A model generated the notes under the pieces. The model saw nothing but the letters and a program-made list of their open reading frames with translations. It was not told the DNA's origin and searched no databases. From a bacterium (GTDB taxonomy: Bacteria; UBP15; UBA6099; DSWB01), in the NCBI GenBank assembly GCA_020061125.1, contig JAGUYV010000020.1, positions 1-12,742 on the forward strand: a stretch of 12,742 nt of DNA. Reading direction: 5' to 3'. Below, piece after piece: positions 2,556 through 11,264 of this stretch. A program made the translations under genes and the position numbers. Each line of letters begins with the position of its first letter. Positions within the stretch are counted from its first letter, which is position 1.

Positions 2556-3035
2556 TTATCGAACACCGCCCGACAGTGTCTGTGCTTCCTCTTCAGAAAA
2601 TATGGAATTCAAATCAAGCAGAATAATAAGCCTGTCACGGACTTCAGCCACTCCCTTGATAAATTGGCTTCCAACGGTTGATCTGGAAATTTGCGGCATG
2701 TGTCCAATCTCATTGTCCAGCAACTGAAAGACCTCAAAAACGCGATCTACAATCAGGCCCACGGAAAACGCCTCAAGCTCCACGAGTACGATTCTTGTTT
2801 CCTTGGTAGGCTCGGCGGCGGCCATTCCAAAGCGCTTGCGCAGGTCCACGATGGGAATGATCTCGTTTCGCAGATTTATGACGCCTTCAATGAAATCCGG
2901 GTATTTCGGAATTGCAGTGATATCAGAAAGCCGCTCAACTCCTTTGATTTTCATGACATCTAGTGCAAATACCTCTTTTCCAAGTGCAAAACTGACATAC
3001 TGGTTAATCGCGGTCGAGGCTATTTTCTTCCCCAT
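2556..3035 (-). CDS. cheW: CheW-like chemotaxis coupling protein, 159 aa
   Basis: This is a single CheW domain filling almost the whole protein (about residues 10-150), the usual length for CheW. Family hallmarks are VSFALGKEVFALDVMKIKGV (14-33), FIEGVINLRNEIIPIVDLRK (48-67), the second-half VGLIVDRVFEV, and the closing FIKGVAEVRDRLIILLDLN. CheW links chemoreceptors to the CheA kinase in cytoplasmic arrays. The start ATG (3035-3033) is the first possible one, since a TAA lies a few codons upstream in frame. A Shine-Dalgarno AAGGGAG (complement of 3049-3055) sits 13 bases before it, longer than ideal. It lies 122 bases behind the giant dockerin protein with a promoter of its own. No receptor, cheA or cheY is in the window, so it is an orphan here. 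The two-beta-barrel CheW pattern is strong; which sensory system it serves is unknown. Confidence 0.9.
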   Translation of the reverse strand: MGKKIASTAINQYVSFALGKEVFALDVMKIKGVERLSDITAIPKYPDFIEGVINLRNEIIPIVDLRKRFGMAAAEPTKETRIVLVELEAFSVGLIVDRVFEVFQLLDNEIGHMPQISRSTVGSQFIKGVAEVRDRLIILLDLNSIFSEEEAQTLSGGVR

Positions 3036-3157: not shown

Positions 3158-6100
3158 TCAGTTCTGGCATAGTCCTGTAGGCGGAGTCATGAGACTGCGG
3201 CCAAAAGTGGCCTTGAGAAGCACGAAGTCCGTGATGTCAACGACCGTGTCTCCATTGATGTCTATGTCGCTGTTGTACCCTGTCTGTCCACTGCTCAACC
3301 CATAGGACCCTCGCATAATCAGAAAATCCTTGATGTCTATCAGTCCATCGCAATTGGCGTCGCCAGCGGTTGGACCCGCGCCCAGTGCAGGCACGGTGAT
3401 GGACGCAAATCCCGTCCCGATGGAAACCCCTGTTTTGACACGAAAATATCCATGGCCATTTTCAACGAATTCGTCATCGTATGCGAAGGGAGCGGTATCA
3501 GGAATCACCAGGCGAACGCTGAAAAGCTCACCGGATTGGGCATTTTCGTAAACTATCTTGAAATCGCCGCTGCTGTCCGTGATGCCGGAGGAGACCACGG
3601 CGTTTGTCAAATCCAGCAACTGGACACTCATGCCGGTCACAGGGGTTTTGGGGTACCCATTGACCGTTGGACCGGCTGAAGTGTCATAGGCAAGGACCCT
3701 GCCCTGCACGCCTGTAGAACCATAGACCGCGATTCCGTTCGAGGACGGTTCACTCTCCAGGCCGTCCGCGTCAAGGGCTGTCACATAGTAATAGTAGGTA
3801 ACGCCGTTTGTGAGGCCCGAATCAATGTAAGTGCGGATGGTGACGGTGGCGGCGTTGATTTGCTCAAATCCGGAGACGCTGTCCGTGCTGCGGAATACAT
3901 TGTAACCTTCAAGGTCCTGCAGGGGTGAGCCGTCGGAATTTGTGGTGGGAGCGGACCAGCTCAAGGACGCGCCCGAGTCCAGGGAGACCACGGCAAGCCC
4001 TGTGGGCGGCGCCGGGGGCAGGCTGCCGGAATCGTTCGGAGTCACTGCGGTTTCCGCGGAGTTGGCGCTTTCGTTGGGCGGCACGGCCGTGTCCAGCGCG
4101 GTAACAACATAGTAATATGTCGTTCCGTTGGTCACCGTTGTATCGGCGTAAGTGGCCTGGGTGACTATTGAGGAGTTGATGAGCGAATAATTGCCGCCCG
4201 TGGTGACGCTGCGGTAAACATTGTACCCCTGCAAATCCGTGAGAACGGACTCGTCGGTGTTGACCAGAGGAGCGGTCCAGGTCAGGGTGACCTGGGAATC
4301 GCCGGGCGCGGCGAGCACATTGTCCGGAGGCATGGGCGTGGCGTCATCGGCGTTGCGCGGCGTGGCGGAAACCAGGTCGGAGAGCGGGCTTTCATTTCCG
4401 GCCTGATCCTGGGCGGTGACTGTGTAATAATATGTGGTTCCGCTGGTTATGGAAGTGTTGTCAACATATTGTGTGGCCGTTGCGGGGACAAGATCGCCCT
4501 TGACATCGTAGCTGTCAACAAATCCGTCGCCGTCGTTGTCCGCGCCGTCGAGCGCGTTCTGGGGGGTGGAGGGCGGCTGGCCCGGGACCAGGGAGCGGTA
4601 CACATTGAACCCGGCGAGGTCGGTGAGCGCGGAGCCGTCGGCGTTGGCGGCTGGCGGGGTCCATGAAATCGTGACATATTCATCGCCCGGATCGCCGGTG
4701 ATATCGCCCGCGAGCGCGGACACCGCGGACGGCGCCTGCGGCGCCAGGGTGTCGAAGGGCCGCGCCTCGCGCTCCAGGGTGTTGGTGTCCTCGTTGGGCG
4801 CCGCGGCGCTGTCCTCCGCGCGCACCACAAAGTAGTAGCGCGCGCCATTGGTCAATCCCGTAACGGTGTAGCTCGTGTTCTGTGTGGTGTATGTGGGCGA
4901 CGAGTAATTCTGGAGGCCCGAATAGCTGGCCTGATAAATATTGTAGATCACAGGCGGAGAATTGTCCGTGGCCGTGCTCCAGGACAGGGACACAGTGTTG
5001 CCCTGCCCTGTGTCCAGGGCAGAGGCCAGGCCCGCGAATGCCGGGGCCGTGGTGTCCGCCGGGATGGCGGAACGCTCTACGGTGTTCGTTTCCTGGTTGC
5101 CGCTTGTGCTGGCGTCGGCCGCGCGCACCACGAAGTAATATGCGGTTCCATTGTTGAGTCCGGACACTGTGTAACTTGTGTTTGTAGTAGTGTATGACGC
5201 TGATGCGAATGTCTGCGCGCCCGATGTGGTGGCTTGATAAATGCTGTATGTGATGGGCGGCGAGTTGTCCGAAGCCGCGGCCCATGTCAGAAGAATTTCG
5301 CCCCCGGCGGCGGTGTCCGAGGCTGACGCCAGGCCCCCGAAAGATGGCTGCACAACATCGGTAGGCGTGATGATGAGCGGCGTGGAGTGGGTGGATGTGT
5401 TGCCGTAGCTGTCTTTGGCGCGCACCACGAAATAATAGGGCGTGTTATTGGTGAGGCCCGTGATTGTCGCACCCGTTGCGGTGGTGGTTGTGGACACCGC
5501 CACGAAACTCGGGGTTGCGTTCTGCGCGTAATAAATATTGTAGGTTATGGGCGTGCTGGGATCCGATGCGGCGGTCCAGGCCAACTCGACCTGCCCGCCC
5601 TGGGTGGTGTCCGTGGCCGAGGCCAAGCCACCGAATGCTGGCGCCTGGGTGTCGGATGGCACGAAAGTGAGGCGCGCTGTGTTGGAGTCGGAGTTCGCGG
5701 CCGCGGAGGCGTCAACGGCGCGCACTCCCACATAGTAGAGGTTTCCGTTCGAAAGGCCCGTGATGGTGGTTCCGGTGGCCGTGCCCGCGGCGGTTGCGGC
5801 CGGCGGTTTGGACCAGAACCCCGTGGGGCTGGTGGCGTAATAAATGTCGTAGTGGTCAATGCCGCTGTTGTCTGTTGCCGCAGTCCATGTGAGAACCCCT
5901 GCGCCGCTGGTCTGTGCATCGGCCAAGGTTTTGATGCCCGCGAATGTGGGCGCGGTGAGGTCGCTGGGCGCGGCGGAAAGCTCCACGGCGTTTGTGGCCG
6001 TGTTGGCGGTGGGCGAGGCGCTGTCGGACACGCCGATGCTGAAGGAGTAGGTTGCGCCGTTGGTGAGGCCCGTGACCTGGTAGGGCCTGTACTGGGTCGT

Positions 6101-9100
6101 GGCCACGGGCGCGCCCCAGTCAAAGGCGGCCGGGGGAATGCGCATATATATGGAATAAACAAGCGGAGTGCTTGGGTCGCTTGCCGGACTCCAGTTCAGC
6201 TCGATCACGCCGCCAAGCTGCTTGTCCGTGGCGGAGGTAATGCCCGCGAATGATGGCGCGGTCTGGTCCGTTGGCGTGGCCGAAAGCTCCACAACATTAG
6301 TGTCGGAAACGCCGCCGGCGTCGCGCGCGCGCACCACGATGTAGTACGGAACATTGTTCGCCATGCCCGTAAGCAGCGCGGAGGTCGCCGTGGTGGTCGT
6401 GGCCGGGCTGGCGAAATTCTGGCCGCCCGAAGTTGTGGACCGGAACACTTCATAGGAAATGGGCGTGGCCGGATCCGCGGCCGCAGCCCATGAGGCCGTC
6501 AGCGCTCCCGAGGTCATGGCATCCGTGAGGCCCGTGACGCCTCCGAACACAGGCGCAGTTCCATCGTTGGGTCTGGCGCTTTTCTGCACCGTGTTGGTTT
6601 CCTGAAGCCCGCCCGTGTCCTGCGCCCTGACCACAAAATAATACATCTGCCCGTCGGTCAGTCCGGTGGCGGTGTATGTCGTGGTGGCCACGGCCTGGTA
6701 TGTCCACGAAGAGTAGTTCTGCCCGCCGGAAGAAGTGGCGGCGTAGATGTTGTAATAAATGGGCGAAGACACATCCGTTGCCGCAGTCCAGGAAAGCAGA
6801 ATTTCGCCGGTGTTGCCCGTGGCCGTGGCCGACGCCAGCCCGCTGAACACCGGGGCCGCGCCGTCCGTTGGCTTGACCGCGCACTGGGCCGTGTTTGTGT
6901 CCTCGTTGGGAGGCGCGGCGCTGTCCTCCGCACGCACCACATAATAATATGTCGTGCCATTCGTGAGTCCGGACAACACAACCGCGGCAGTGGCTGAAAA
7001 CTGGTAATCCCAACTCGCGAAATTCTGCGCACCCGAGGCTGCGGCCTGGTAAACATTGTAGTAAACGGGCGTTGTGTTGTCCGACGCCGCGGACCAGAAC
7101 AGCTTCACCTGGCCGTCCGCGCCCAGGTCCGCGCACGAGGACACTCCGGAGAACACGGGGTCGAGCACATCCGTGGGCGTGGCTGAAAACGCGAGCGTGT
7201 TGGAGTCGTAATTGCCGCTGGCGTCAAAGGCGCGCACCCCAAAGGTGTATTGCGTTCCGTTGGTCAAACCGGATACATCATAGGATGTGGCCGTTGTGGT
7301 ATACACCGCGGTGCTGAAGGAAACCGAAGCCCCGGCTTCCACGAAAATGGCATAGGTGACGCTGCCCGACTCGTCGGACCCGGCATTCCATGACAGGCTG
7401 ACCGTGCGGCCGCTGCCCGCGTCCACCGCGGACACCAGCCCGCCGAACACCGGCGGTGTGATGTCCGTGGGTGTCGCCTCCCCAAACACCGTGTTGGTGC
7501 TTGCAAGGCCTGCGGAATCCTCGGCGCGAACCAAGAAATACTGTTTGATGTCATTGTCGAGGCCCGAAAGCGTAAGCGTCGTAACGCCGGTTACGCTTGT
7601 GGCCAGGGACATGTCATCCGTGGCCAGGCCTGTGTAGATGTTGTATGTGATGGGCGGAGTGTCATCCGCGGCCAGAGACCACTCAATGGCCACCTCGCCT
7701 CCGATGCCCGTGTCCGTGGCGCCGGTCAGAAGCCCGCCCGAGGGCACGGCCCCGTCAGTGAGCATGAGTTGCTGCTCCACGGTGTTTGCGTCCATGTTGC
7801 CAAGGGCCGAGGAATCGCTGGCGCGCACAATGATGTAATAATCCTGGGCGTATTGCAGTCCCGCGCCGCTGAATGTGTGCGAGCCGAACTGGTCCGTGGA
7901 AAACAGCGGAGAGTTGAAATCCTGCCCTCCGGATGTGGTGGCCACGAAAACATGATAAAAAACCGGCAGAGTGTGGTCCGTGGCTTCACCCCAGGACAAA
8001 TGCATGGCCGGTCCAAGCCCGGACGCAGGCTCCTCCGCGTCCTCGGCCGTGGCCAGACCCCCGAACACCGGGGGATAACTGTCGGTCTCCATTACGACTT
8101 CGAGCGAATTGCCCGTGCTGGCGGCCGCGAACAGAATCCAGGGATCCGCGGCGATGCTCGAATCCGCGGCCACAATGCCCTGCGGATTCTGCCCAATGGA
8201 AAGCGGAGACCCCGACACTTCGGGCATGCCCGTCTGGGTTTTGAACACCCGCACATGATTCAATCCGGGCACGGTCACATAAACCAGCCCGATGTCCGGC
8301 ACAACGGCCACATCCTCGGGCGACGCGGAAAGCGCAGCCTGGGACACCACTGTATCCGTGGTTCCATCTATCATGTAAACCCGCTGCGCGCCCGCGCATG
8401 CCACGAAAATCCTGTTGTTCGCCTCGTCCACGGCAATGCCCCGCGGCCCGGCCCCCACCAGAATCGAACCGGTAATCGCGTCCGTGGCAGGATTTATGAT
8501 GCTGATGGTGTTGGATCCGCTGTTCGCCACATAAACCTTGCCGGTAACACTGTTTACCGCTACTCCATAGGGCGCATTGAATCCACCGATGAGCTGCGTG
8601 ACCGCATGCGTGTCCCCGTTTATCACCGACACCGTATTGTTGGTGTTGTTGGCGACATAAACCTTGTGGGACGGAGACCCGAAAGGCATGACCCCCACGC
8701 CCATGGGATTGGCGCCCACGCCAATAGGATACCCCGCACCCGTAAGCTCTACATCCATCCCCCCGCTCGCATCTATGACCGAAACCGTGGAATGCGTTTT
8801 ATTGGTCACATACACTTTGGGAGCGACGGCATCATTAAATACCGCAACCCCGTACGGGCTGGCCGCACCGCTGTTAAGCATAATCGAGCTTGTTGCCGGT
8901 GCTCCAAGATTGATTACGATGACGGTGGATGTGCCGAAATTCGTGTTATAAACCCTCTGAACCGCATGCGCATCAAGAACCGCCGCATCCTGCGGTCCCG
9001 TGCCCGGCCCCATATCTATACTCATGTTAAGAAATGGAGCGGCATTCGCAGCAACACCGGCGAGCAAACAAAAAAATGCAAAAACTGCCGTTATCACGGC

Positions 9101-9124
9101 GTTTTGTACCCGTTTGCGTGGCAT
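3158..9124 (-). CDS. Giant secreted YVTN-propeller / 14x fibronectin-III / dockerin protein (about 1988 aa)
   Basis: ATG 9124 is preferred as the start because AAGGGA lies 8 bases before it and a clean Sec signal peptide follows: basic PRKR, hydrophobic residues about 8-26, cleavage near ANA-AP at 28. An in-frame GTG at 9160 would add 12 residues. Residues about 45-345 form a YVTN-type beta-propeller with seven blade-like repeats (KVYVTN, KVYVAN x2, RIFVAC, LVYVTV; outer two divergent). Residues about 349-1460 are eleven fibronectin-III-like modules of about 100 residues (GLTNGTxYYFVVRAxD...TNT). Three longer ones (about 1461-1800) follow; the first contains an acidic DNDGDGFVD loop. Residues about 1802-1915 look like a transthyretin/CarboxypepD-regulatory beta domain (ITDSSGDFKI). 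The end is a type I dockerin with two Ca-loops (from residues 1922 and 1955). It is probably an extracellular scaffold, adhesin or enzyme-docking protein. No catalytic domain, membrane anchor or sorting signal is visible. Confidence 0.9.
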   Translation of the reverse strand: MPRKRVQNAVITAVFAFFCLLAGVAANAAPFLNMSIDMGPGTGPQDAAVLDAHAVQRVYNTNFGTSTVIVINLGAPATSSIMLNSGAASPYGVAVFNDAVAPKVYVTNKTHSTVSVIDASGGMDVELTGAGYPIGVGANPMGVGVMPFGSPSHKVYVANNTNNTVSVINGDTHAVTQLIGGFNAPYGVAVNSVTGKVYVANSGSNTISIINPATDAITGSILVGAGPRGIAVDEANNRIFVACAGAQRVYMIDGTTDTVVSQAALSASPEDVAVVPDIGLVYVTVPGLNHVRVFKTQTGMPEVSGSPLSIGQNPQGIVAADSSIAADPWILFAAASTGNSLEVVMETDSYPPVFGGLATAEDAEEPASGLGPAMHLSWGEATDHTLPVFYHVFVATTSGGQDFNSPLFSTDQFGSHTFSGAGLQYAQDYYIIVRASDSSALGNMDANTVEQQLMLTDGAVPSGGLLTGATDTGIGGEVAIEWSLAADDTPPITYNIYTGLATDDMSLATSVTGVTTLTLSGLDNDIKQYFLVRAEDSAGLASTNTVFGEATPTDITPPVFGGLVSAVDAGSGRTVSLSWNAGSDESGSVTYAIFVEAGASVSFSTAVYTTTATSYDVSGLTNGTQYTFGVRAFDASGNYDSNTLAFSATPTDVLDPVFSGVSSCADLGADGQVKLFWSAASDNTTPVYYNVYQAAASGAQNFASWDYQFSATAAVVLSGLTNGTTYYYVVRAEDSAAPPNEDTNTAQCAVKPTDGAAPVFSGLASATATGNTGEILLSWTAATDVSSPIYYNIYAATSSGGQNYSSWTYQAVATTTYTATGLTDGQMYYFVVRAQDTGGLQETNTVQKSARPNDGTAPVFGGVTGLTDAMTSGALTASWAAAADPATPISYEVFRSTTSGGQNFASPATTTTATSALLTGMANNVPYYIVVRARDAGGVSDTNVVELSATPTDQTAPSFAGITSATDKQLGGVIELNWSPASDPSTPLVYSIYMRIPPAAFDWGAPVATTQYRPYQVTGLTNGATYSFSIGVSDSASPTANTATNAVELSAAPSDLTAPTFAGIKTLADAQTSGAGVLTWTAATDNSGIDHYDIYYATSPTGFWSKPPAATAAGTATGTTITGLSNGNLYYVGVRAVDASAAANSDSNTARLTFVPSDTQAPAFGGLASATDTTQGGQVELAWTAASDPSTPITYNIYYAQNATPSFVAVSTTTTATGATITGLTNNTPYYFVVRAKDSYGNTSTHSTPLIITPTDVVQPSFGGLASASDTAAGGEILLTWAAASDNSPPITYSIYQATTSGAQTFASASYTTTNTSYTVSGLNNGTAYYFVVRAADASTSGNQETNTVERSAIPADTTAPAFAGLASALDTGQGNTVSLSWSTATDNSPPVIYNIYQASYSGLQNYSSPTYTTQNTSYTVTGLTNGARYYFVVRAEDSAAAPNEDTNTLEREARPFDTLAPQAPSAVSALAGDITGDPGDEYVTISWTPPAANADGSALTDLAGFNVYRSLVPGQPPSTPQNALDGADNDGDGFVDSYDVKGDLVPATATQYVDNTSITSGTTYYYTVTAQDQAGNESPLSDLVSATPRNADDATPMPPDNVLAAPGDSQVTLTWTAPLVNTDESVLTDLQGYNVYRSVTTGGNYSLINSSIVTQATYADTTVTNGTTYYYVVTALDTAVPPNESANSAETAVTPNDSGSLPPAPPTGLAVVSLDSGASLSWSAPTTNSDGSPLQDLEGYNVFRSTDSVSGFEQINAATVTIRTYIDSGLTNGVTYYYYVTALDADGLESEPSSNGIAVYGSTGVQGRVLAYDTSAGPTVNGYPKTPVTGMSVQLLDLTNAVVSSGITDSSGDFKIVYENAQSGELFSVRLVIPDTAPFAYDDEFVENGHGYFRVKTGVSIGTGFASITVPALGAGPTAGDANCDGLIDIKDFLIMRGSYGLSSGQTGYNSDIDINGDTVVDITDFVLLKATFGRSLMTPPTGLCQN
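3227..3361 (-). other. Type I dockerin: two calcium-binding loops
   Basis: Two 12-residue F-hand loops are encoded by the complements of 3326-3361 (D-A-N-C-D-G-L-I-D-I-K-D) and 3227-3262 (D-I-N-G-D-T-V-V-D-I-T-D), 33 residues apart. Both keep the calcium ligands at positions 1, 3, 5, 9 and 12; the second has Thr where Gly is usual at position 6. Helix-like segments (FLIMRGSYG, FVLLKATFG) follow each loop, as in dockerins that bind cohesins. No cohesin is encoded in the window. Confidence 0.9.
4746..8080 (-). repeat. Tandem array of eleven fibronectin-III-like modules, about 300 bp period
   Basis: Module starts, marked by a P-x-F-x-G-[LVI] motif, fall near 8080, 7750, 7456, 7165, 6860, 6560, 6260, 5957, 5645, 5351 and 5046, with the next domain beginning near 4745; the period is close to 303 bases. 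In the second module the motif has drifted to PSGGL. The modules share the start, a central D-x-[ST]-x-P-[IV]-x-Y-[NS]-[IV]-Y, and the GLTNG-TxYYFVVRA-D core with a closing TNT. Each copy differs enough at protein and DNA level to be old duplication. Three further, longer modules of a different subtype continue to about 3722. Confidence 0.85.
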
Positions 9125-9132
9125 GCTCACTG

Positions 9133-9138
9133 TCCCTT
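9133..9138 (-). promoter_or_regulatory. Shine-Dalgarno site that decides the start of the giant gene
   Basis: AAGGGA (complement of 9133-9138) stands 8 bases before ATG 9124-9122. The upstream in-frame GTG at 9160 has only a weak AGG five bases before it and would put a non-typical stretch ahead of the signal peptide. Confidence 0.65.
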
Positions 9139-9190
9139 GCGCCAGTTTATCAGTGCGCACTATCGCCTGTCTTCTTCTTTTTCTTCTTGA

Positions 9191-9220
9191 ATTATAACAT
9201 AGAGGAATTATCAGTGTCTA
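9191..9220 (-). promoter_or_regulatory. Predicted strong sigma-70-type promoter for the giant gene
   Basis: On the minus strand TAGACA (complement of 9215-9220, 5 of 6 to TTGACA) is followed after 18 bases by a perfect TATAAT (complement of 9191-9196). Transcription would begin near 9184, giving a purine-rich leader (AAGAAGAAAAAGAAGAAG) of about 60 bases before the ATG at 9124. Confidence 0.65.
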
Positions 9221-9318
9221 TAGAGCAATATGTGACTTGTATCAAATATTGTATTTTTGCTTCATCTTCCGGGTTTGTGTTGAGTGCGAATATCGTCTTT
9301 AGCGCCAGGCCCCGTGAG

Positions 9319-9357
9319 CATTCCTCTCTGTGTCCCTTTGTTCGTCTGTGATCTTCC
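9319..9357. repeat. Segment resembling a dispersed 'ACACAGAGG' intergenic repeat
   Basis: On the minus strand this reads GATCACAGACGAACAAAGG followed by GACACAGAGAGGAATGC. It recalls the short A/C/G-rich dispersed repeats (CACAGAG / CACGAAG words) found between genes in many environmental bacterial genomes. Only one copy is in the window, so the repeat identity rests on recall of that pattern and is tentative. Confidence 0.3.
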
Positions 9358-9460
9358 GTCCCAGGATCAAGCATTACTAAAACCTGACAAGTCGCGCGCC
9401 CCATCGCATTTCTTTTTTTGAATCACAACGCCAGCAATGACCGGAAAATCGTGGATTGGG

Positions 9461-9477
9461 GGGCTTTTGAAAAGCCC
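9461..9477. repeat. Perfect inverted repeat GGGCTTTT-g-AAAAGCCC
   Basis: Eight-base arms surround a single central base (9469), giving a tight hairpin of about 7 pairs with a 3-base loop. A second small stem, GCGGG (9498-9502) with CCCGC (9513-9517), lies 20 bases further on. No U-tract follows on either strand, so it is not a standard terminator. It could be an operator or part of a small structured RNA. Confidence 0.55.
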
Positions 9478-10829
9478 GGTTACGGATTCAAACAGGAGCG
9501 GGCACGCGGAAACCCGCCGAGTTCCCGGTCCCCATTACTTCTGATTCGCGTCTCTCGTACAGCTTTTGTGTTCTCAACAGGTTCCATAAGCCCGCTTGCT
9601 CCGTATCCGCGCCTTCCGTGTTGATGCATCCGTTTGCCTATTCGTTGATTCGGTTGAGTCTTCGCCTTGCTTTGTTGCGTCTGGCCGATACTTTGCCATC
9701 CTGTCTGTCATCGCAACGCACTTGCTTTATAGCGTCGGCTGTTTTTGGTTTTAATTTGGTTTTTTGTCTTTTTTGTCCTTATGCAAAGCCTGTGATTCCT
9801 GTCCACTTTCCCATTTTCCTGTAATTTGACTATTCTTGTACAGTCTAATTTATTGGATCATCTGCTGATTTCTCTATTGGTCAGATGCCATGCTCAATTC
9901 CATATTGCATTTGTTTTTTGGTGTCGCGCAACAGCTTCGTCCAGTCTACAGAATCCCATGAAAACAGTGGTGTTATTTTTCCACAGGCCCGTCAATACTG
10001 AATTCATCTTGTTTTTTGCTGCCTGCTATGCTTATTTTGCTTAATATTGCAGCCAATTTCCGAAATTATTAACAAAATGTATTCTTGTGATTAATTCTGT
10101 AAATAATATCATCTAAATTCGGATGCCTTATGTATTTCCTCTCGCTTTAAAAAGTCTAATTCCTTAACGCACACTTATCTCCATCTTGTAATATTGTGAG
10201 AATGAACTTATTTTCCGTGTTTAACAGGCATTGTTTCTGATTCGTTTACACCGTCAAAATTTGTCCGCCGCCTGATATTTGGATAATATCCGGTAGTTGC
10301 CTATTTCTGATAACCATATTTATTGTTCTCATTTTGTTCGCCATTTTTCTGCATCGCACACTCATCACAGTTGCGGCTCATTAAATAATTGTTGCTTTCA
10401 GGCTATCTTCGCGCAATGATTTGCAGCATCACGGGCGTTGTCTTCATGCTTGCCCTTGGTTATGATAAAAGGTCGGCAAGTCGCCATGTAATATCTCTGC
10501 TTTAATTTTCTACCTTCTGTTGTCCATCTGGTCACGGCGCCAATCAATGCTTCCTCTTTTCTGGACTTATTGCAGATATTATATTGGACAACGCTGATTT
10601 TACGATAAATAACGGAATTGGTGTGTCCAAACAATCATTATTGGATGAATATCATACAAATCAACAGCGGACGAATCCATTAACGCAAGATTTTCAGATG
10701 ATGCATTTTAATGTACGGATACGCTTGCGCAAAGACCATTTGCATGTTATGGATGAGATTTCTGGGATAATGGAGGAATCCAAGCCCCATCCGGTGACTC
10801 CATGACTGAATCTATGCTCTTTTTCAAGA

Positions 10830-10907
10830 GCGGTTTTTCATACCGGGCCTTAAACCGCAATAGCGCGGCTTATTTGCTATGTGCGCCTGCTTTCTTGTTG
10901 AGGCGCA
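10830..10907 (+). ncRNA. Candidate structured RNA with alternative and consecutive stems
   Basis: GCGGTTT (10830-10836) pairs exactly with AAACCGC (10852-10858). The CCGC of that arm (10855-10858) can instead pair with GCGG (10865-10868), an alternative hairpin extended by TAA/TTA with one mismatch. A separate perfect 7-bp stem follows: TGCGCCT (10882-10888) with AGGCGCA (10901-10907). Three stems within 80 bases of otherwise AT-rich non-coding DNA, two mutually exclusive, suggest RNA structure. Strand and function are unknown, it matches no RNA family I recognise, and chance is possible. Confidence 0.25.
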
Positions 10908-11244
10908 GCATCCGAGAGATTTTCGTCGTATGCCTGCTTCATTTTCAAACAGTGTTTTTCAGGGGGCTTTTTTGAATTTTACAGTATGCCGCACTTTTAG
11001 TATCGCATATACGCAAGTATGCTTCGTCATCATGCCCTAAAATCGGGTGCTGATTTTTCAGATTTCTTGATTGGGGGCGCTTCTGGATGTGATTATCTGG
11101 TGCGCACAGAAAGAGGCCGCTAACCCGCGCACACTTGAGCAACCCGGGATCGCGCCATTGTTCGCATTCAAGAAGGCGGTTCCAAGGTATTCTGGGCTGG
11201 GTTGAAGGCGAAAAATGCGCGAGAGGGGATTTTGGACACATATC

Positions 11245-11264
11245 GCCCCTTGCGCGGGGCTTTT
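11245..11264 (+). terminator. Weak terminator-like hairpin after the small gene
   Basis: GCCCC (11245-11249) pairs with GGGGC (11256-11260) around a 6-base loop and is followed by TTTT (11261-11264) on the + strand. The upstream genes are on the minus strand, where the hairpin lies 12 bases past the stop of the small gene but is preceded by A's and not followed by U's. It could stop + transcripts or act as an mRNA-end hairpin for the minus operon. Confidence 0.3.

Follow-up and report, generated by a model that had tools for sequence, protein, structure and literature searches.

Cohesin and dockerin are best known as the pair that holds cellulosomes together. X-dockerin dyads of the CipA type anchor scaffoldins to clostridial cells, and the NagJ/NagH partners of Clostridium perfringens are glycoside hydrolases. 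The dyads at scaffoldin ends have been described (PMC3413522). Non-cellulosomal cohesin and dockerin modules are known from ANME archaea (PMC9012536) and Cloacimonadota (PMC8542988), and those of Archaeoglobus are cited in PMC9012536, which refers to Peer et al. 2009; PMC9012536 also emphasises that such proteins differ strongly between close species. In this study, we analyzed a window of 12,742 nucleotides, which is one whole contig (JAGUYV010000020.1, C320) of a draft genome (GCA_020061125.1, lineage UBP15; 4.1 Mb, 513 contigs, 79% complete), focusing on a gene for a giant protein made up of a YVTN beta-propeller, 14 fibronectin III (Fn3) modules, a transthyretin-like beta-sandwich and a terminal dockerin. 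Among the papers searched, none brings YVTN, dockerin and fibronectin together. We propose that the product is a non-enzymatic stalk-and-head surface protein of a diderm bacterium, anchored by a dockerin tail that would plug into an envelope cohesin; we regard this reading as evenly balanced between true and false.

The window genome (G000) was compared with six other genomes of the same order (G001-G006), giving seven in all; positions are listed in Table 1, and residues are counted from the GTG at 9160 (the ATG at 9124 is codon 13). The terminal dockerin scored 25.2 and 26.5 bits against Pfam Dockerin_1 (PF00404), for which the curated cut-off is 22.9, and both of its loops have D/N/D/D/D at positions 1, 3, 5, 9 and 12. 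The two F-hand loops of PF00404, with D or N at positions 1, 3 and 5 and D at position 12, were found in 7 of 7 genomes. By profile the dockerin is nearest to type II dockerins (2y3n_B, 2b59_B and 5g5d_B), and in structure it aligned with the type II dockerin 2y3n_B over 58 residues (Z 9.0, rmsd 1.7). A profile of five tails retrieved type II dockerins and the X-dockerin dyads of CipA and ScaA from the Protein Data Bank (PDB), the best being 2y3n_B (5.5e-13), with some matches that reach into the preceding domain (4wi0_B, 43-174; 2b59_B, 89-177). The tail was also modelled from a 22-row alignment of the window and related loci (pLDDT about 85-95 in the dockerin, about 60-84 in the sandwich, poor in the linker). 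All ten Foldseek matches of this model at E<=1e-3 were type II X-dockerin dyads (CipA, CipB, ScaA) with both domains aligned, at a high rmsd because the relative orientation of the domains is not fixed. The tail arrangement is thus X-dockerin-like and its dockerin type II-like.

The closest described counterparts are the type II X-module-dockerin dyads of CipA (Clostridium thermocellum) and ScaA (Acetivibrio cellulolyticus; 2b59, 3kcp, 4u3s, 5g5d), which likewise are C-terminal, place a sandwich directly before the dockerin and are matched across both domains in profile and fold searches. The present tail differs in standing on a propeller/Fn3 protein and not on a cohesin scaffold, in its diderm host, in having a putative rather than a known partner, in a sandwich which alone is closer to SdrD/CnaB, and in a cysteine within calcium loop 1 and another near the terminus. 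Both cysteines occur in all five tails of the window genome and in the orthologs, and a Cys1937-Cys1998 disulphide that closes the dockerin is a reasonable inference from the sequences. The NagJ/NagH pair (2ozn) is similar in bearing a dockerin on a secreted non-cellulosomal protein (dockerin fold Z 6.7), whereas the window protein has no enzyme.

The rest of the chain is fully accounted for. In the Pfam and NCBIfam searches, the YVTN repeat TIGR02276 scored 71 bits (E 5e-20) against a cut-off of 27.85, YNCE was matched too, and fibronectin III lay above its family cut-off. The propeller model, built from a 2-row alignment and of moderate confidence (mean pLDDT 66, up to 95 in the middle blades), has seven four-strand blades between residues ~47 and 358, which together with the repeats places it among the seven-bladed YVTN propellers. 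Its closest PDB match is 1l0q, the propeller of an archaeal surface-layer protein, which is likewise exported and continues from a seven-bladed YVTN propeller into Ig-like modules; there the modules are PKD, while the window protein has an Fn3 stalk and a dockerin end. When the chain was split at the recurring D..PPVFGGL motif, exactly 14 Fn3 modules covered residues 360-1816 without a gap. With an Fn3 module length of ~3.5 nm, the extended stalk is estimated at about 45-50 nm. Module 12 has an extra calcium-loop-like insert, DGADNDGDGFVDSYD (window 4505-4549, residues 1538-1552), without counterpart in the orthologs.

Every stretch of the protein was assigned by domain search and structure models to propeller, Fn3, beta-sandwich or dockerin; no remainder is long enough for a hidden enzyme, and no catalytic domain was found along the chain, which sets the protein apart from cellulosomal enzymes. 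The exoglucanase family CbhB (NCBIfam NF041611) matched at E 1e-66 and was rejected, because the match (225 bits, cut-off 1950) comes from the Fn3 modules; a match raised by the stalk alone is a trap for automatic annotation. A first-pass annotation made from the sequence had named the propeller, the 14 modules, the transthyretin-like domain and the dockerin with intact loops, and had made its reading depend on the absence of an enzyme; in all of this it agrees with our results. Its suggestion of a scaffold did not hold. The protein carries no cohesin and so cannot itself be a scaffoldin, and it resembles a surface-anchored client instead.

Of the six genomes compared, five have full-length orthologs of 1993-2023 residues that are 39-43% identical to the window protein; the sixth, G005, has a C-terminal fragment. 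As the whole domain order is kept at this level of identity, the architecture is not a product of chance; the next relatives beyond the order have only the domain in common with it. The number of Fn3 modules is identical in the orthologs, and 7-8 of the 14 window modules match the module at the same position best, which indicates that the stalk is old and fixed. Identity is 44-49% in the stalk and 27-30% in the propeller, as would suit a head that varies on a stalk that stays constant. Like the ANME, Archaeoglobus and Cloacimonadota systems, this lineage combines dockerins with a small number of cohesins in a setting other than cellulose degradation, with envelope proteins among the carriers; unlike the variability stressed for such proteins, one dockerin protein here keeps its full architecture across an order. 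The parts themselves are known. What is unusual is that they occur together in one protein, that the lineage has conserved this arrangement and that the dockerin is put to a non-enzymatic use.

Searching the window genome for other dockerins, as the first-pass annotation had proposed, gave a total of six dockerin genes, none with a recognised catalytic domain. The beta-sandwich-dockerin tail recurs on four further proteins (25-37% identity) with differing front parts, as expected of a common anchor. In this uncultured lineage, a conserved non-enzymatic protein bears a dockerin, and further large exported proteins carry its tail as well. A Cys-rich dockerin protein family of ~1370-1500 residues (L012 4895-9130, L013 802-4917, and L157 1185-5693 in G001 C180) has several copies per genome, and its N-terminal region (FEIPTIPFPPQI...) has no Pfam match. 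The N-terminal domain of a 617-residue paralog (contig C88) looks cohesin-like by eye and gave no Pfam match.

The same genome was also searched for cohesins (PF00963, curated cut-off 24.1 bits), and defined candidates for the dockerin partner emerged. One cohesin lies above the cut-off (40.5 bits; contig C118, 2294-2653); it ends a protein that begins with a lipobox-like sequence and has CarboxypepD_reg, PEGA and Big_2 domains. Relatives of this lipoprotein adjoin small dockerin genes in other genomes. At C118 itself (L010, 1-4200) there is likely a cohesin-dockerin gene pair, the second protein having an N-terminal dockerin and RCC1 repeats; the interval between these holds GHG and GAC, which by eye resemble a clan CD peptidase, with no match in Pfam. 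The second candidate, on contig C392 and present in all seven genomes, is a protein of at least 1445 residues with two N-terminal cohesin-like domains; a barrel-like form is suggested by its C-terminal half and by weak matches to porins. The window-genome copy scored 13.8-19.5 bits against PF00963, and the first cohesin-like domain of an ortholog fragment in G005 scored 32.6 bits, above the cut-off, the other copies being below. Domain 2 matched a type II cohesin of the PDB at E 0.08 only, and the PDB search with the protein gave no significant relative. A third cohesin protein (735 residues; NPCBM-associated, DUF11 and cohesin domains) was present in five of the seven genomes and not found in G000 or G002; its assignment as a secretin was wrong in view of these domains. 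Its neighbours are a sensor kinase and a short coiled-coil protein with an SLH domain (L113 3790-9657, G005 C157; L114-L116), an order retained in several genomes. Six of the seven genomes have cohesin or cohesin-like matches, which exceed the Pfam cut-off in two; profile A11, used in the cohesin search, contains some of its own matches by construction.

On the proposed reading, a Sec signal would take the giant protein out of the cytoplasm and an unspecified outer-membrane step out of the cell, where it would fold with calcium. The propeller would serve as binding head and the C-terminal dyad as anchor, with a fixed-length stalk of 14 Fn3 modules between them and the dockerin plugging non-covalently into a cohesin on an envelope protein; the cohesin lipoprotein of C118 and the large barrel-like protein of C392 are the candidate receptors. 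From the sequence evidence we infer a surface location, cohesin binding, a docking partner and a ligand of the head, and the protein is probably an adhesin. Should the docking prove real, Gram-negative-type cells would have a non-covalent means of surface display to set beside sortase and type IX anchoring. A wider form of the proposal, that the whole diderm lineage uses cohesin-dockerin plugs as its general means of mounting large non-enzymatic proteins on the outer membrane, with the C392-type barrel as receptor and the CheW-linked propeller stalk as universal client, is rather doubtful.

Several observations weigh against docking by an X-dockerin-like dyad. Taken alone, the beta-sandwich matches SdrD B-repeats by profile (1e-7) and not X-modules, and its structural neighbours are CnaB, SdrD and transthyretin among the matches listed; the homology of this half to X-modules is unproven, and the plain label of X-module was not adopted. 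X-dockerin chains were not among the 50 matches listed in the VIA-align comparison, which one-domain matches filled. The dockerin is not better conserved than the stalk (29-47% versus 44-49% identity). The sole above-cut-off cohesin of the window genome adjoins another dockerin, its likelier partner, and in hhalign the domains of the C392 barrel protein aligned weakly with the cohesin alignment (12% and 11% probability, with thin alignments), though still better than controls. In G002, a genome 97% complete, seven dyad proteins were found and the genome search gave no cohesin at E<=0.1; the first domain of its barrel protein is a sub-threshold cohesin match (E 0.0018). It is mainly these seven tails without a cohesin above the cut-off that keep docking evenly balanced. 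The non-cellulosomal docking and surface display put forward in the first-pass annotation are accordingly retained in part: the same-genome cohesin, the shared tail and the likeness to surface-anchoring X-dockerin dyads favour them, and G002 speaks against them.

The same facts could be explained by a C-terminal sorting or secretion tail, or by a cap locked by calcium and a disulphide, that works without cohesin and is recognised, for example, by an outer-membrane exporter. The tail is the only part common to otherwise different exported proteins, it closes the chain and includes a conserved terminal cysteine, and tails outnumber cohesins, G002 lacking a cohesin above any cut-off. This explanation does not account for the cohesin or cohesin-like matches of the other genomes, some of which are paired with dockerin genes, or for the retention of both calcium loops, and at least two dockerins in the order are N-terminal (C118; C54 of G001), a position senseless for a C-terminal tail, although these come without the beta-sandwich. 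We consider it unlikely, yet the strongest of the alternatives.

A sensory or motility accessory is improbable; here the exported binding protein would be tied to the function of CheW (and flagellin), would touch the envelope at several points including the dockerin and would not be an adhesin. The giant-gene loci are syntenic: each of the seven genomes has the CheW gene next downstream in the same orientation, and four of them (G002, G003, G004 and G006) also have a flagellin gene upstream. CheW, a chemotaxis adaptor, is however cytoplasmic, sites resembling a promoter and a terminator separate the two genes, and conserved gene order by itself is no proof of joint function. A cellulosome-like enzyme complex, in which the giant protein would share a scaffoldin with dockerin enzymes and act in targeting or as a spacer, is very improbable: cohesin and dockerin genes do share one genome, the dyad resembles scaffoldin ends and the C118 dockerin protein may hold its peptidase-like stretch, but the window genome has no protein with several above-cut-off cohesins, none of its six dockerin proteins has a glycoside hydrolase, and the CbhB match is due to Fn3 modules.

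The open reading frame 3158-9160 has 2000 codons from its GTG. The shorter gene 3158-9124, given as secreted in the first-pass annotation, is the better one because AAGGGA precedes the internal ATG and a textbook Sec signal peptide follows it.

Table 1. Features of the giant gene and its surroundings in the window.
Feature	Position	Strand	Residues	Remarks
Sigma-70-like promoter	9191..9220	-		TAGACA-18-TATAAT, TG before -10, 11/12; consensus match only
Giant propeller-Fn3x14-transthyretin-like-dockerin protein	3158..9124	-		1988 aa from ATG; 2000 aa from GTG at 9160
Sec-type signal peptide	9038..9124	-	13-41	from sequence; model with hydrophobic helix at residues 15-36
Seven-bladed YVTN beta-propeller	8084..9037	-	42-359	family matches and model
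14 tandem fibronectin III modules	3713..8083	-	360-1816	number constant in orthologs
Transthyretin/CnaB-like beta-sandwich	3371..3712	-	1817-1930	directly before dockerin; X-module-like by position
Type II-like dockerin	3197..3370	-	1931-1988	
Calcium loop 1	3326..3361	-	1934-1945	DANCDGLIDIKD
Cys1937	3350..3352	-	1937	inside calcium loop 1; present in 7/7 genomes
Calcium loop 2	3227..3262	-	1967-1978	DINGDTVVDITD
Cys1998	3167..3169	-	1998	near C-terminus; conserved in 7/7 genomes
CheW-like protein	2556..3035	-		directly downstream of giant gene; listed as a neighbour, any part in the system hypothetical

A stretch of ~2 kb before the start of the giant gene (window 9225-11260) shows no frame that clearly resembles a gene and no match to Rfam or tRNA, and the search for RNA families and tRNA across the window found none. 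In G001 (C54; L156 1012-4836), an N-terminal dockerin is followed by a region which reads as cohesin-like (FTVTYNGDSALALDAFIDFDPAMLQVTD) and the protein is possibly an adaptor. In Poribacteria (L029, L031 and L032, retrieved by the dockerin search), single proteins have an apparent cohesin-like domain directly before a dockerin, and in one of them these two domains are placed after WD40-like repeats.

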